Assembly (NCBI GenBank): GCA_015057325.1
Contig: SVEQ01000006.1
Span: forward strand, 1-64,000
Reading direction: 5' to 3'
From: Lachnospiraceae bacterium
GTDB lineage: Bacteria; Bacillota; Clostridia; Lachnospirales; Lachnospiraceae
DNA: 64,000 bases
Part shown: positions 57,765 to 64,000 of the stretch, piece by piece
How the letters are laid out: every line of letters starts with the position of its first letter
Numbering within the stretch: the stretch's first letter is position 1
Notes under the pieces: generated by a model
Seen by the model: the letters and a program-made list of their open reading frames with translations, nothing else
Databases searched by the model: none
Told to the model about the DNA's origin: nothing
Made by a program: the position numbers and the translations under genes

Positions 57765-57848
57765 AACATCAAATAGTGGTAGATTGCGCCATTATTGAGC
57801 TTAGAGACTATTGACGCAGGTGTCTCAATAATTAAAGGAGGGATGCAG

Positions 57849-58397
57849 ATGGCAGGGATTAATATCAGTCCTTATCAGGCGTATAATCAGACTCATAACT
57901 ATTCGTCATTATTCGCAGGCGTGAACAAAGCGTCCTCTGATAATGGTTGGGATTTATCTGGTTTATCTGATTATGCGTCAATCAAAAACGGCAGTTATGG
58001 CAAGCTGGTCAAAGCAAGTTATGCGAAGGCTAATAAGTCTTCAGACACAGACACTAATTCTAAGTCGACTATTAAGACGGCAGAGGAGAGACGTGCAGCA
58101 AGAGAGAAAGCCAATACGTCAACAGATAGCAAGGATACCGGCAAGACGGAGCTTACCGGAGCAGCGGCAAGACGTGCGGCCAGAGAAGCCAGAATTAACA
58201 AGACTGCCACAACCGGAGCAGATGAGAAAGCCCTTACCACAACAGATGTAGCTAAGTCTAATATAGGCTCTTCTACTGCAGAGGCAACAAATGCCATTGC
58301 GCAGGAAGATAGTGCTAAGGCTATATACACGAGTAGTGCAGTTGCTTCACCGACAATGTCGGAACTTATGGCAAGCACATTTGATATCAATGTATAG
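57849..58397 (+). CDS. Unrecognised protein with ISPYQAYNQ start and SYGKLVKASY motif
   Basis: 182 aa from ATG 57849, 7 nt after AGGAGG. The first 60 residues are structured (NISPYQAYNQTHNYSSLFAG, then SDYASIKNGSYGKLVKASY); the rest is low complexity, rich in A, T, K, S with two AARRAAREA-like blocks. No signal peptide. I recall SYGKL motifs in unassigned Lachnospiraceae proteins, but no function. It pairs with the next gene, which also has a Ser/Thr/Ala-rich disordered part. Confidence 0.7.
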   Translation: MAGINISPYQAYNQTHNYSSLFAGVNKASSDNGWDLSGLSDYASIKNGSYGKLVKASYAKANKSSDTDTNSKSTIKTAEERRAAREKANTSTDSKDTGKTELTGAAARRAAREARINKTATTGADEKALTTTDVAKSNIGSSTAEATNAIAQEDSAKAIYTSSAVASPTMSELMASTFDINV

Positions 58398-58453
58398 AAG
58401 ATTTCCGGTTGAATGTAACTAATGTGCCGCACATATAACAAGGAGGTTTGATT

Positions 58454-59113
58454 ATGGTTTCAGGAATTGAGAGTACAAGCAGTAATGCTTATGTGGCTTC
58501 AACAAGTCAGGTTGCTCAGTCTTCTGCAGAGAGTACAACAGCTAAGACAGAAGATACAGCAGCTAAGGTTGCTGATGGAGTGGTGTATGATAAGAGCAGT
58601 GATACTGTAGATAAGAAAGCACCTTATTCTATCAACAAGATGAGCAAAGAAGACAGAGATGCTTTGGTTAAGCAACTTAAGGACGACGAATTAAATCGTC
58701 AGCAGAGTCTTCTTGATATCGTTAACAAGACTTTGGGACAGCAGGCAACAAAGTTCACACTTGCTAATCTTACAGGCGAGGAAGATGATAGCTTCTGGAA
58801 GTACATTGCAGAAGGTAACTATGAGGTTGATGAAGAGACCCGCAAGAAAGCACAGGAGGATATTTCCGAGGACGGATATTGGGGAGTTAAACAGACCTCC
58901 CAGAGAATGTTTGATTTTGCAAGTGCTCTTGCCGGTGATGACGTTGATAAGATGAAAGAGATGCAGGCTGCTATCGAAAAGGGATATAAGGCAGCTACTA
59001 AAGCTTGGGGAAGAGATCTTCCAAGTATTTCCAACGATACTATGGATGCAACCAACAAGCTCTTTGAAGAATATTATAAGTCAAAAGAGCAGGCTAATGG
59101 TATTGTAGGATAG
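58454..59113 (+). CDS. Unrecognised soluble protein, partner of the previous gene
   Basis: 219 aa from ATG 58454, 7 nt after AGGAGG. Residues 1-55 are Ser/Thr-rich and disordered; the rest is helical and acidic, with EDGYWGVKQTSQRMFDFASALAGDD and AIEKGYKAATKAWGRDLPSIS. No signal peptide or membrane segment. The style (disordered N-terminus plus amphipathic helices) is like proteins linked to flagella or secretion in Clostridia, but I cannot name a family. Confidence 0.7.
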   Translation: MVSGIESTSSNAYVASTSQVAQSSAESTTAKTEDTAAKVADGVVYDKSSDTVDKKAPYSINKMSKEDRDALVKQLKDDELNRQQSLLDIVNKTLGQQATKFTLANLTGEEDDSFWKYIAEGNYEVDEETRKKAQEDISEDGYWGVKQTSQRMFDFASALAGDDVDKMKEMQAAIEKGYKAATKAWGRDLPSISNDTMDATNKLFEEYYKSKEQANGIVG

Positions 59114-59184: not shown

Positions 59185-59257
59185 TATATTTGTCGTATTA
59201 GAAAAAAGGTGCTATATTATAGATAAATTCTAGTACAGATACAAAATGGAGGGCTAT

Positions 59258-59947
59258 ATGACTATAGGGATAGTGGATGATAAAGAGGAAGATCTTGAAG
59301 TTTTCTCAAATAAATTACGGGAAAGATTAGACATCAGTGACAATATACGTTGTTACACGCATCCGGAAGAAATAAAGCTTCAGATAAATGAGCTTGATGT
59401 CGTTTTTATGGATGTGCAGATGCCGGAAAAAGATGGAATAAGTCTGGCAAAAGAATTGCTTGATATTAATTCAAAAATAATACTTGTTTTTCTGTCGGAT
59501 TATGATAGCTATGTGTGGGATAGCTTTGCTGTAGATGCGATATATTACATGAGGAAACGTTTCTTTGAAAAGGAACTTGGACAGGTTATCAAACAGATAA
59601 ATGACAAGTTTATCAAAAGAAAAAAAGACTATTCGACGATAAAAGTTGGGAATAAAATATACAATTTAAATTTGAGAAATATATTATATGTAGAAGCTCA
59701 ACAAAAGGATGTTAGGATTGTTACACGGGACGGTGATATCAAAATAAGATATCGTATCAGCTCTCTGGAAAAGGAATTGGAAGGTTTTATAAAAATACAC
59801 AGGAGTTATCTTGTTAACCCAATTTACGTTAAGAGCGTCAAAGAAAGAGAATGGATTATGGAAAATGATGAATCTTTGCCAGTATCAAAATACAGACGTG
59901 AAGAGGTCAGACAGGAATATTTATCATTTTTGAGTATGTATATGTAG
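59258..59947 (+). CDS. LytTR response regulator (AgrA-like)
   Basis: 229 aa from ATG 59258, with GGAGG upstream. Receiver about 1-120 with IVDDKEED acids, D52 in VFMDVQMPEKDG and a C-terminal LytTR DNA-binding domain (IYNLNLRNILYVEAQQKDVRI, FIKIHRSYLVNP, LPVSKYRREEV). Such regulators bind pairs of direct repeats next to promoters. First gene of a locus with a split AgrC-type kinase; the intact D52 makes it the likely phospho-target. Confidence 0.92.
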   Translation: MTIGIVDDKEEDLEVFSNKLRERLDISDNIRCYTHPEEIKLQINELDVVFMDVQMPEKDGISLAKELLDINSKIILVFLSDYDSYVWDSFAVDAIYYMRKRFFEKELGQVIKQINDKFIKRKKDYSTIKVGNKIYNLNLRNILYVEAQQKDVRIVTRDGDIKIRYRISSLEKELEGFIKIHRSYLVNPIYVKSVKEREWIMENDESLPVSKYRREEVRQEYLSFLSMYM

Positions 59948-59972: not shown

Positions 59973-60866
59973 ATGAGTTACTATTCGGGGATAAAGGCGG
60001 TTTTGTGGGATTTAATAGACCCCATTGAAGCATTATTGGTTCTGGATTTTATAATTGCAAACACGGCATATAAGAATTCGGAGAAAAAGGGAAAAATAGG
60101 AAAACTAATCTGTTCATTAGGGTGGCTGATTATGGTTTTGCTAAATGAAAAATATATTCCGTATGTTCCGGTGGCAATAATTCTGTGTATTTTTGTGTTT
60201 GGAATTTACGCAGCGTTATATTTGAAATGTGGAGCACTTCAATACATATTTTGGTATATTATGGGTATTGTATCTATGACTCTGTTTGATACATTGTCTT
60301 TTTTGATTATTACGGTGATTGTTAATACGAACGATCCTTATAGTTACATAATGGATCATTTTCCTATTCGGATGTCGGGAGCAATAATAAGCAAATTATT
60401 ATTTTTTATTTTTATTGAGTTGTATAAACGTTTTAAGGGACGAGATTATGAAAATGAGCATAAAGAGATAACGCCGGAGATAGTAGTCAGTGTCGCCTTT
60501 GCAACTGTATTTGTAATTTTGCTTGTTTACAATTTGATGGGAATTTCTCGGAATACGGAAGCCATTGTACAATTAAATATCTATATTGTAGTTCTTGTGA
60601 TGGTAGTTTTGAGTGGCGGTTTTTTTGTCAGGAACAGACGTGAAAAAGAGACAATGCGAAAAAAGACTGAACTTATACTAAATGAAAACAAAATGATAAA
60701 TGCACATTATATGGAAGATGTTTCGTTATACGAAAAGATGCGAGAGAATCGACATGATGTAAAACATCATAAAGAGTATCTGCGTTATTTGGAAAAGGAG
60801 CAGAAATACGAAGAAATGATTCAGTACATTGGACAGATTTTATCAGGAGGAATGAAGAATGAATAA
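59973..60866 (+). CDS. AgrC-like membrane sensor with histidine box but no ATPase domain
   Basis: 297 aa. Six to seven membrane helices in residues 10-220 (start GIKAVLWDLIDPIEALLVLDF), a coiled segment, then the phospho-acceptor H261 in NRHDVKHHKEYLRYL. The protein ends 36 residues later, just where AgrC-family kinases continue into their GHKL ATPase. The next gene, overlapping by 8 bp, supplies an ATPase. It is nearly superimposable on the gene at 61739. Either a natural split kinase or a truncated duplicate. Confidence 0.82.
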   Translation: MSYYSGIKAVLWDLIDPIEALLVLDFIIANTAYKNSEKKGKIGKLICSLGWLIMVLLNEKYIPYVPVAIILCIFVFGIYAALYLKCGALQYIFWYIMGIVSMTLFDTLSFLIITVIVNTNDPYSYIMDHFPIRMSGAIISKLLFFIFIELYKRFKGRDYENEHKEITPEIVVSVAFATVFVILLVYNLMGISRNTEAIVQLNIYIVVLVMVVLSGGFFVRNRREKETMRKKTELILNENKMINAHYMEDVSLYEKMRENRHDVKHHKEYLRYLEKEQKYEEMIQYIGQILSGGMKNE

Positions 60867-61746
60867 AACCAGGAGAATAGTATATAATCTTGAGGATATT
60901 GTGCTGTTTAGTTGTATTTTGGTTCTTTTTTTCATACTCACTGCAACGGGATTTAACGTTTTTGAAAAGACGAGCTTTAGAATTCTTTTTACTCTGTTAA
61001 GTGTGGTGATGTCTTTGGTTGTTGGCGGAACGGTATTTTCACTTAAAAGAAAAAATCAGAAGGCAGAGGAAGAGTGGTTTGAAGTAAAAAAGAAGCAAAT
61101 GGAATATACGATGGGGCTTAATTATCAAAAGGAAACAAAGGCCCTGCAAGATGAATTTAAAAACATACAAGAAGAGCAATCATTGTTTTACAACAGGTTA
61201 TATGACTGTCTTGTTGAGAAAAAATATAACGAAGTAGAAAAGCTTTTGAGAGGGAAAAAGACGGAATCGTTTGATGGAGAATTGTTTTTTTCAGGGAATC
61301 GTGTTTTGGATGTAGTGATAAGTCAGAAAAGTTTTCGTGCTTCGGAGGAAAATATACACATCAAATGTGATGTACAATGTCCGGATATTTCCTATATTAA
61401 GGAGACGGATCTTAATGTTCTTTTGTCTAACCTTTTAGATAATGCCATAGAAGCAGTACTAAGATGGAAAAAAGAGGGTGGTAGTGAAGAGGATGAGGCA
61501 ATCATATCATTGACCATTAGAAAACACAGAAATTATCTTGTAATACTTGAAGAAAATCCATGCATTAAAGTGCTGCAGGGAAAAAACAAACGCCTTAAAA
61601 CAACGAAAACAGATAAAAAGCATCATGGCATTGGAATGCAAAGTATGGAACGAATAGCTGTCGAATATAATGGTTTGATTGACTTTCATGTTTTAGATGG
61701 ATGCTTCAGCATAAAAGTGATTCTGGAGGACAAGTTAAATGGCTGA
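60859..61746 (+). CDS. Membrane GHKL ATPase without histidine box
   Basis: 295 aa. Two membrane helices (about 12-60), a coil, and an AgrC-type GHKL ATPase with N195 in LSNLLDNAIEAV and HHGIGMQSMERI. In the stretch where RHDxKHH should be, it reads IQEEQSLFYNRLYD, so no acceptor His. It can bind ATP but must phosphorylate a His in another protein; the flanking genes offer H261 and H262. It overlaps both neighbours by 8 bp, which favours fixed ratios of the three proteins. Confidence 0.85.
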   Translation: MNKTRRIVYNLEDIVLFSCILVLFFILTATGFNVFEKTSFRILFTLLSVVMSLVVGGTVFSLKRKNQKAEEEWFEVKKKQMEYTMGLNYQKETKALQDEFKNIQEEQSLFYNRLYDCLVEKKYNEVEKLLRGKKTESFDGELFFSGNRVLDVVISQKSFRASEENIHIKCDVQCPDISYIKETDLNVLLSNLLDNAIEAVLRWKKEGGSEEDEAIISLTIRKHRNYLVILEENPCIKVLQGKNKRLKTTKTDKKHHGIGMQSMERIAVEYNGLIDFHVLDGCFSIKVILEDKLNG

Positions 61747-62617
61747 ATTTGATGGAATACGTGCAGTCTTGTGGGATTTGATTAATCCGATAGAAGCATA
61801 TATCATATTACGTTTTGTTGCTTTTCATGTTGGTTATAAAGATAGAGTGTGGGGAAGAAAAATTGCTCTTGCTACTTATCTGATAGTTTGGGACATAATT
61901 GTTGTTGTCAACGGATTTGTTTTGCCGGACATACCGATTGATATGTTTATAAATGCAGTATTGGTTCTTATATATGGTCATTTTTATCTCAAAGGTACTG
62001 TTTCCAAAAAACTCTTTTGGTACATGATATCAGTGTTAGTAGTTGTTGTATCCGACTCGATTGCAGGGGTGTTTTTTTTCCTGACGTTAAGATCTTCGTA
62101 TGGATTTGATTATTTGATGAAAAACTTTGAGTTAAGAATGCTCTTTGCTTTACTTGGAGTTATGATTTTATTTGTTATTACGGAATTGTATTTTCGCATT
62201 CGACGTTCGAAAGATATTAATTATACAAATAAAGATGTCTCGCCTAAAATGGTTTTTGCTGCAGTAATGATAGTGTTTACCGTAATGGTAATCGTGTATA
62301 GTTTTATGACTGTCGAAAAAAGCATTGCAGGGCTTGTACGTATGTTAGCATATATTTTAATTTACATTGTGCTGTTATATCTGATTGGGAATTATCTTCA
62401 TAATATAAAAGAGAAAACGGCACTTAAACAGGAACTGGAATTAATTAGGGAATCGGAGGAAAAAAGAACAGTTCATTATGAAGAAGGCGATGCAATACTG
62501 ACCAAAGCAAGAGAATTACGACATGATGAGAAGCATCATTTAATATACTTGGAAATGTTAAATGAAAAAGAAAACTATGGTGAAATGTTGTGTTATTTAA
62601 AACAAATAAAAGGGTGA
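61739..62617 (+). CDS. Second AgrC-like membrane sensor with histidine box but no ATPase
   Basis: 292 aa, same plan as the gene at 59973: start GIRAVLWDLINPIEAYIILRF, membrane helices to about 225, coil, H262 in LRHDEKHHLIYLEML, and an end 30 residues later. The membrane halves of the two genes are similar but clearly diverged, so they may read different signals. Ribosome site inside the previous gene; 8-bp overlap. Confidence 0.82.
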   Translation: MAEFDGIRAVLWDLINPIEAYIILRFVAFHVGYKDRVWGRKIALATYLIVWDIIVVVNGFVLPDIPIDMFINAVLVLIYGHFYLKGTVSKKLFWYMISVLVVVVSDSIAGVFFFLTLRSSYGFDYLMKNFELRMLFALLGVMILFVITELYFRIRRSKDINYTNKDVSPKMVFAAVMIVFTVMVIVYSFMTVEKSIAGLVRMLAYILIYIVLLYLIGNYLHNIKEKTALKQELELIRESEEKRTVHYEEGDAILTKARELRHDEKHHLIYLEMLNEKENYGEMLCYLKQIKG

Positions 62618-62628
62618 TTTATATGAGG

Positions 62629-62655
62629 GGAGAGACTATATTGTCTCTTCTTTTT
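62629..62655 (+). terminator. Terminator of the split-kinase operon
   Basis: Short stem GGAGAGAC / GTCTCTTC with loop TATATT and five T residues, 12 bp after the stop at 62617. Confidence 0.75.
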
Positions 62656-62661
62656 CCTTTT

Positions 62662-62721
62662 GTGGCATGATTTGACTTTTCGTGGCAAGATATGGAAACA
62701 AGAATTTTTATCCGATATAAT
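62662..62721 (+). promoter_or_regulatory. Direct-repeat promoter of the second LytTR gene
   Basis: GTGGCATGAT at 62662 and GTGGCAAGAT at 62682 are spaced by 20 bp; TATAAT follows at 62716, 34 bp after the second repeat. The -35 region (TGGAAA) is poor, as expected for activation. The same layout recurs at 63517-63576. Confidence 0.75.
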
Positions 62722-62853
62722 CAATTTGTTAATTGTCGGGTAGGATAGAAATATGTTGAAGATATTAAATGTTACAAAAAAAATGTCATATTTTACATTC
62801 GCAAACAACTCCTGTTTTTTCAGAGTAAAATGTTAATTGAAGGGAGGAGTAGT

Positions 62854-63432
62854 ATGAGAATAGCATTATATGATTCGGAACAGAGCATATTGGATAAATA
62901 CAAAGCATTACTCTGTGATAGGTTGGATGAAAAAGTATTTGAAATAGATTGCTATACGGAGCAGCAAAAGTTGGTTGATGTTTTGGAACGATATGACCTT
63001 GTGTTTATGACAGAGTGTGCGATGTCTCATTTGACAAAGGCGTGCGGCGATGATGAGGTTATTCTTGTTTCGGGTAGTAGGGTTGAAACTATATCGATTG
63101 AGGATATTATATATATTGAGGCAGATCTTAAACAGGTTCATATCTTTTTGAAGAATGGCGGAGAAATAGTTATTCGTCTTACTTTTAAGGATGTGGAACA
63201 ACAATTAAAAAAATCTCAAAAAGCTTTTGTTAAAGTGCATCGAAGTTATATTGTTGCCATGGATATGATTAGGCGGATACAAAACAAAAGTGTTTTGCTA
63301 AAGAATGGTGTGGCTTTACCAATCAGTAAATACAGATTGCAAGAGGTTATAGACAGCTATCTTGCATATCAGGAAAAGCAAGCAATTATTATTCGAGACG
63401 CAACAGAGGAAGACGAGTCTGATACTGAATAG
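62854..63432 (+). CDS. LytTR DNA-binding protein with a receiver lacking the acceptor Asp
   Basis: 192 aa from ATG 62854, which follows GGGAGG. The N-terminal 55 residues are a shortened receiver (MRIALYDSEQSIL, YDLVFMTECAMSH) with T53 where the first LytTR protein has D52, and about 35 residues missing before the LytTR domain (VETISIEDIIYIEADLKQVHI, FVKVHRSYIV, LPISKYRLQEV). It should bind DNA without phosphorylation. It lies behind a repeat-bearing promoter and may compete or cooperate with the 59258 regulator. The tail is acidic. Confidence 0.85.
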   Translation: MRIALYDSEQSILDKYKALLCDRLDEKVFEIDCYTEQQKLVDVLERYDLVFMTECAMSHLTKACGDDEVILVSGSRVETISIEDIIYIEADLKQVHIFLKNGGEIVIRLTFKDVEQQLKKSQKAFVKVHRSYIVAMDMIRRIQNKSVLLKNGVALPISKYRLQEVIDSYLAYQEKQAIIIRDATEEDESDTE

Positions 63433-63458
63433 CAAATAGAGAGAAATAGATTTTATAT

Positions 63459-63491
63459 GAGCTTATATCGGAGGAAATCCGGTATAAGCTC
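63459..63491. other. Stem-loop after the second LytTR gene
   Basis: A 14-bp stem (GAGCTTATATCGGA / TCCGGTATAAGCTC with one G-T pair) and loop GGAAA. No T run follows, so it is a weak terminator or an RNA-stabilising hairpin. Confidence 0.6.
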
Positions 63492-63516
63492 GTTGTATTT
63501 GCAATGAAAACTTTTC

Positions 63517-63576
63517 GTGCCGTATATCGTCCGTTGGTGGCGTGGTAAAAAATGTATAAAGCAAAAATGATATAAT
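63517..63576 (+). promoter_or_regulatory. Direct-repeat promoter of the terminal gene
   Basis: GTGCCGTAT at 63517 and GTGGCGTGG at 63537 are spaced by 20 bp; TATAAT starts at 63571, 34 bp after the second repeat. This is the same geometry as 62662-62721. There is no -35 box (AAAAAT), so it should need an activator, most likely a LytTR protein of this locus. Confidence 0.75.
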
Positions 63577-63693
63577 TTTAGTTGGAGAATTGTTGTCAAA
63601 CCTTACATTATAATTGTTATTTTTTCCATAACAGGAATTATCAGTAAACAGATATTAAACTGACAATATAAAACATAAATGGAGGGATTATAT

Positions 63694-64000
63694 ATGTACA
63701 TTTTGGATTTTTTTAAGAGGACTTTAAGAGTATCAAATATTCCGGTAATTATTTATTTAATTATTAATGTATTGATTATTATCGGTGCAACATATCTGTT
63801 TGTAGGGGATGTTCTGTTAGCAATAGTTATTGGTCTGGGAATATATATTGTTTCGATGATGATTACTTTGTCTCCAATCGGAGAGTGGATATTAAGGCAG
63901 CAAACCGGATGTAAAAAAATTACACGAAAAGAATATAAAGATTATCTTATGCCTATATTTGAAGAAGTCTATACGAGAGCAAGAAATGAGGATCCGACAA
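63694..64000 (+). CDS. Membrane protein, probably a M48-type metallopeptidase (5' part only)
   Basis: 102 codons visible, running off the window end without a stop. ATG 63694 follows GGAGGG by 8 nt. Two membrane helices (about 16-37 and 42-65), then SPIGEWILRQQTGCKKITRKEYKDYL and FEEVYTRARNEDPT, which I associate with clostridial M48-like peptidases; the HExxH motif would lie outside the window, so this is not confirmed. It follows the second direct-repeat promoter. Confidence 0.6.
   Translation, partial: MYILDFFKRTLRVSNIPVIIYLIINVLIIIGATYLFVGDVLLAIVIGLGIYIVSMMITLSPIGEWILRQQTGCKKITRKEYKDYLMPIFEEVYTRARNEDPT

Follow-up and report, generated by a model that had tools for sequence, protein, structure and literature searches.

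Two promoters near the end of the window, the 64,000-nucleotide stretch of a Lachnospiraceae contig that was analysed here, carry the same direct-repeat element, and this element is conserved in relatives, where it is linked to genes for LytTR-family regulators. It is likely that the elements are LytTR-family operators bound by the protein encoded at 62854, which would switch on both its own gene and a cluster encoding an M48 peptidase-FHA fusion, kinases, a phosphatase and LRR proteins.

The element, here called class A, is a direct repeat with a spacing of 20 bp (CTTTTCGTGCC...|CNTTGGTGCC...), and the operators, promoters, hairpins and genes of the window from 59246 onwards that are described below lie on the forward strand. 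Operator 1 has its repeat units at 62656–62675 and 62676–62695 (CCTTTTGTGGCATGATTTGA|CTTTTCGTGGCAAGATATGG; 15/20 positions identical between the units), and operator 2 at 63511–63530 and 63531–63550 (CTTTTCGTGCCGTATATCGT|CCGTTGGTGGCGTGGTAAAA); from the start of unit 1 to the TATAAT is 60 bp in each. The original prediction was of repeats 20 bp apart and a TATAAT 34 bp later at both promoters, and every coordinate is correct: site 1 has GTGGCA starting at 62662 and again at 62682 and its TATAAT at 62716, and site 2 has GTGCCG (63517), GTGGCG (63537) and TATAAT (63571). The shared flank CTTTTCGTG is also present, but it belongs to unit 2 of site 1 (62676) and to unit 1 of site 2 (63511). The -35 boxes had been described as poor or absent, which holds for promoter 2, where a -10 box (63571–63576) is accompanied by no recognisable -35, but not for promoter 1 (62693–62721), where a usable TGGAAA stands 17 bp from the TATAAT (62716–62721; 10/12 in score) with the same spacing as in the sites of relatives. 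At site 1, as in relatives, the -35 starts 17 nt into unit 2; at site 2 this spacing is kept without a -35. A plain promoter scan carries no weight alone, promoter-like sites being no commoner than in shuffled DNA. Immediately 5´ of each operator lies a terminator-like hairpin, that of the preceding gene at 62625–62654 and that of the 62854 gene at 63457–63493, and each operator pair therefore probably heads its own transcription unit.

The window contains two copies of the pattern GTGSCR-N14-GTGSCR, where 0.03 would be expected by chance, and the genome scan that the original prediction had proposed, with TATAAT 26–30 nt later, returns exactly these two sites in 3.05 Mb, the reversed-pattern control giving no match in the same genome. 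These counts are descriptive only, because the pattern was derived from the two sites themselves, and independent tests weigh more for the same reason. The repeat of site 1 (15/20 identity plus TATAAT) was equalled in 1 of 20,000 shuffles of its own intergenic region. A weight matrix was built from 15 sites outside this genome, with both window sites excluded. Of the 229,868 positions that it scored in this genome, site 2 came first (38.4) and site 1 next (12.7), and no other scored above 0.4. Among 464,344 positions in other loci, not one reached the leave-one-out score of site 1, 15.6 (closest 15.4). A model built on ten sites of other genomes places its best match in this genome at 63509–63579 (28.1 bits, E 6e-6), the best score outside genomes with linked sites being 20.5 bits; site 1 is weak by this measure (13.3 bits, E 0.25). 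Some of the relatives' sites had been selected visually, guided by the words seen in the window; those of G152, G168 and contig C11 of G150 came from automatic scans, without such choice. Weak matches within coding regions (e.g. in L148 and L150) were discounted as chance. A fortuitous likeness of two AT-rich promoters would accord with the internal repeat of site 2, which alone is not significant (3143 of 20,000 shuffles), but is scarcely credible in the face of the held-out ranks, the genome-wide E value of site 2 and the conservation across species and genera: the sites are real and conserved.

The class A element is present in 9 of the 25 other genomes of the genus, preceding genes for half-receiver LytTR proteins (see below), for REC-LytTR-FHA proteins and for surface proteins. 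The half-receiver gene is preceded by it in this genome and in G150, G162, G168, G173 and G174; G150 and G174 also have it in front of REC-LytTR-FHA genes, and in G152, G162 and G166 it is found ahead of BspA-type genes. Ten sites aligned with this genome left out read CTTTTCGTTCnnTATATTGT CCnTTGGTTCnATATTGTTGAAAT...TATAAT, with a -35 TTGAAA beginning 17 nt into unit 2 and the -10 about 17 bp further. The region 5´ of the half-receiver gene on contig C8 of G150 was too diverged to be counted. An all-sites model, circular for both window sites and applied to new sites only, added one on contig C124 of G161, which shares 31 of 40 positions with site 2. Across 298 genomes drawn from other genera and from the remainder of the family, its two best held-out matches were in G300 and G111 (E 3e-9 and 2.5e-8 among 299 genomes). 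In each case an oppositely oriented LytTR response-regulator gene has its 5´ end beside the site, which gives the LytTR reading independent support. A class A-like promoter conserved across two genera (L161:801–873 and L173:6772–6842) has no LytTR gene near it.

The gene between the two operators (62854–63432; the listed open reading frame starts at 62830, and a Shine-Dalgarno sequence favours 62854) encodes a protein that matches the LytTR family (PF04397, E 8.8e-19) and, in the family scan, gives no Response_reg match. At the expected position of the phospho-acceptor Asp it reads YDLVFMTECAM. Homologues occur in 7 of the 25 other genomes of the genus, and in the 11 aligned half-receiver proteins (the window protein was judged from its own sequence) the receiver ends after the third strand, where the phospho-acceptor Asp would be expected, and both this Asp and the remaining half of the domain are absent. 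Having lost half of the receiver, such proteins presumably cannot be phosphorylated. Judged from its sequence, the 62854 protein is thus not an ordinary response regulator, as it lacks half of the receiver together with the phosphorylation site, and phosphorylation would not be what drives it. A tree of 59 LytTR domains unites the 12 half-receiver proteins of the genus, that of 62854 included, in one clade (99/94), sister (88/91) to a regulator with a complete receiver, RR1, of this genome and G166, and set apart from a REC-LytTR(-FHA) clade, RR2 (97/90). The half-receiver proteins and RR1 have PxSKYR near the C terminus in common, and RR2 proteins mostly end in SRKYYE or similar. An AlphaFold model of the half-receiver protein alone (pLDDT 37.6) was set aside.

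RR1 itself (59246–59947) is an AgrA-like protein with receiver and LytTR domains and was found in two genomes only, this one and G166. That its gene, placed at 59258 in the original prediction, has no operator at its own promoter was borne out by our search. The three genes beside it (59973–62617) lie outside the operator. Two of them (59973–60866 and 61739–62617) encode membrane proteins with an RHDxKHH motif at the end and no ATPase domain, and the one between (60859–61746) a GHKL ATPase protein without that motif; the trio may represent a split histidine kinase and a signal input. A similar trio in G166 (L053) consists of a GHKL protein, RR1 and one H-box protein. The small proteins encoded 5´ of RR1 (57795–58397 and 58448–59113) have no family matches; somewhat similar-looking small genes adjoin LytTR/GHKL operons in G158, G162 and G170.

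Downstream of operator 2 lies what had been called a terminal membrane protein. It is in fact an M48 peptidase-FHA fusion, encoded from 63694 to the window's end at 64000 and on to contig position 65109 (listed open reading frame from 63679), and it is the first gene of a large FHA/kinase/phosphatase/LRR cluster, apparently for surface signalling, of ~35 kb reaching about contig position 98,000. After it come three kinase-like proteins, a 2319-aa LRR/Big2 protein, a PP2C phosphatase and a member of the RR2 clade (REC-LytTR; contig position 78548). The pairing of an M48 peptidase with a C-terminal FHA domain (L023:3694–5109) is unusual, and one Ser/Thr kinase (L023:6670–8622) is fused to an extracellular solute-binding-protein domain (PF01547) and is a possible ligand-sensing kinase. 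In relatives, most half-receiver genes are found in or beside clusters for Ser/Thr kinases, PP2C phosphatases, FHA proteins and BspA-type LRR proteins. The clusters of G174 and G150 include a 1519-aa protein that we take, from the look of its sequence, to be EssC-like and small proteins that we likewise label WXG100-like, which suggests type VII secretion there.

A second operator class, class B, occurs in the same clusters. It has a 21-bp period (TTACATTT; consensus GTCAAAAnTTACATTATCTTTGnTAAAAnTTACATTTT) and precedes secreted-protein, WXG100-like, RR2 and half-receiver genes. In this genome it has matches at contig positions 95782 and 93674, with weak ones 3´ of both class A promoters. A tentative repeat at 62772–62800 (TTACAAAA...TTACATTC; 7.1 bits, E 0.04 in 5 kb), with TAAAAT 33 bp past its unit 2, may be a second promoter of the half-receiver gene; at 63595–63622 there is an equally tentative partial element with a single good unit (10.4 bits, E 0.0034 in 5 kb). 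Where class B sites precede secreted-protein genes in L059 (11630–11690, 13720–13780 and 15830–15890), a strong hairpin with a T-run comes after the site and overlaps the supposed -10 box, as it also does in G174 and G150 (z -4 to -6). This hairpin may be the terminator of the upstream gene or a regulatory element.

Which LytTR protein reads the class A sites can be approached through co-occurrence, with p values that are weakened by the kinship of the genomes: half-receiver or RR1 genes are present in 8/10 class A carriers and 1/16 other genomes (p 2e-4), the association of class A with the RR2 clade is weaker (p 0.05), and class B occurs only in genomes with RR2 (9/9 carriers, p 7e-4). In G161 and G169, both class A carriers, neither a half-receiver nor an RR1 gene was seen, and in G156, which has the regulator, a class A site was not found; fragmented assemblies are among these genomes or the neighbours. 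One alternative is that RR1, which is phosphorylatable, is the main binder, and that the half-receiver protein competes with it and damps the response by negative feedback. RR1 and the half-receiver proteins being sister clades, and the latter lacking the receiver part normally used for activation, this arrangement is conceivable, and G166 pairs RR1 with a class A site, no half-receiver gene being detected there. Six genomes, however, combine class A sites and half-receiver genes without RR1, and we consider the idea unlikely. Binding of class A sites by the RR2-clade protein encoded at contig position 78548 is improbable. The clade is present in 8/10 class A carriers, and class A precedes RR2-clade genes in G150 and G174, but the clade fits class B better, G160 and G170 have it together with class B and no class A site that could be found, and its end motif differs.

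The arrangement also recalls the LytTR Regulatory System (LRS), in which a membrane inhibitor keeps a LytTR protein inactive, a role that would fall here to the M48-FHA protein. Points of resemblance (PMC6193735) are that the LytTR protein has no functional receiver, that autoregulation would run through repeats and that a membrane protein is encoded next to it. The M48-FHA gene, however, has its own promoter, with a terminator-like hairpin 5´ of the gene, its product carries peptidase and FHA domains, and a membrane protein gene of this type does not lie 3´ of the half-receiver genes of relatives. An LRS of this kind is thus very improbable, and membership was rejected on the grounds that regulator and inhibitor are not in one operon and that relatives have no such pair.

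In what we regard as the best explanation, then, the 62854 protein would bind both operators, activating its own gene through operator 1 and the M48-FHA/kinase/phosphatase/LRR cluster through operator 2. The direct repeats are about two helical turns apart (20 bp) and end at the -35 region, so that a LytTR dimer on one face of the DNA could help RNA polymerase; by analogy with AgrA and LRS promoters (PMC4227749, PMC6193735), it may recruit or reposition the polymerase at a poor or missing -35. RR1, which has a complete receiver and is encoded next to the split kinase genes, is also likely to recognise these sites and may provide the signal input. Of the small autoregulated regulon in the original prediction, autoregulation is likely, as the promoter of the small LytTR gene has the site here and in five relatives, but the regulon is not small, because promoter 2 opens the cluster to about contig position 98,000. 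Positive feedback at the half-receiver gene is, for the same recurrence of the site at that gene, the most likely design. A broader reading, tentative and somewhat less likely than not, is that half-receiver LytTR proteins have, genus-wide, come to control operators that once belonged to a two-component regulator and drive themselves together with large kinase/phosphatase/FHA clusters, including type VII secretion in some species, and that a second LytTR clade uses the second operator class within those clusters.

The core word TTCGTGGCA fits the AgrA-type core consensus at 5 of 9 positions, too few for us to count it as a match. This is not treated as defining, because operator cores vary between LytTR regulators (PMC6193735). 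LytTR direct-repeat operators are known from AgrA P2/P3 and from the HdrR and BrsR promoters of Streptococcus mutans (PMC4227749, PMC6193735); like those described here, they consist of two repeats ~20–22 bp apart just 5´ of a poor -35 and often sit at the regulator's own promoter. The repeat period and the position relative to the -35 are as published (PMC6193735) and, together with the LytTR gene linkage in relatives, fit the claim of LytTR-type operators; with such textbook geometry, the original interpretation largely holds, with the corrections given above. What differs is the core, here TTCGTGCC/TTGGTGCC, and that a half-receiver regulator and FHA/kinase clusters are served. As in the LRS (PMC6193735), the regulator has no working receiver and probably regulates itself through direct repeats; in contrast to it, the operon has no dedicated membrane inhibitor and the receiver is truncated, not wholly lost. 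Response regulators with a pseudo-receiver (PMC12632262) likewise have a receiver-derived domain without a phospho-acceptor, whereas the second half of the receiver is here absent rather than just mutated. RR1, with adjoining AgrC-like H-box and GHKL parts, resembles agr-type two-component systems, but the kinase parts are on separate proteins and RR1's own promoter has no site; none of eight proteins scanned gave an AgrB family match.

In conclusion, the operator architecture was already known. Its sequence class, together with the half-receiver regulator and the cluster that is served, makes up a variant of which our searches of open-access literature found no description; nor did they find a regulator described for FHA/kinase/phosphatase clusters in this family. 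The sites provide defined DNA sequences for the control of such clusters, some of them linked to type VII secretion, in these anaerobes, and a LytTR clade that has shed half of its receiver raises the question of what replaces phosphorylation.
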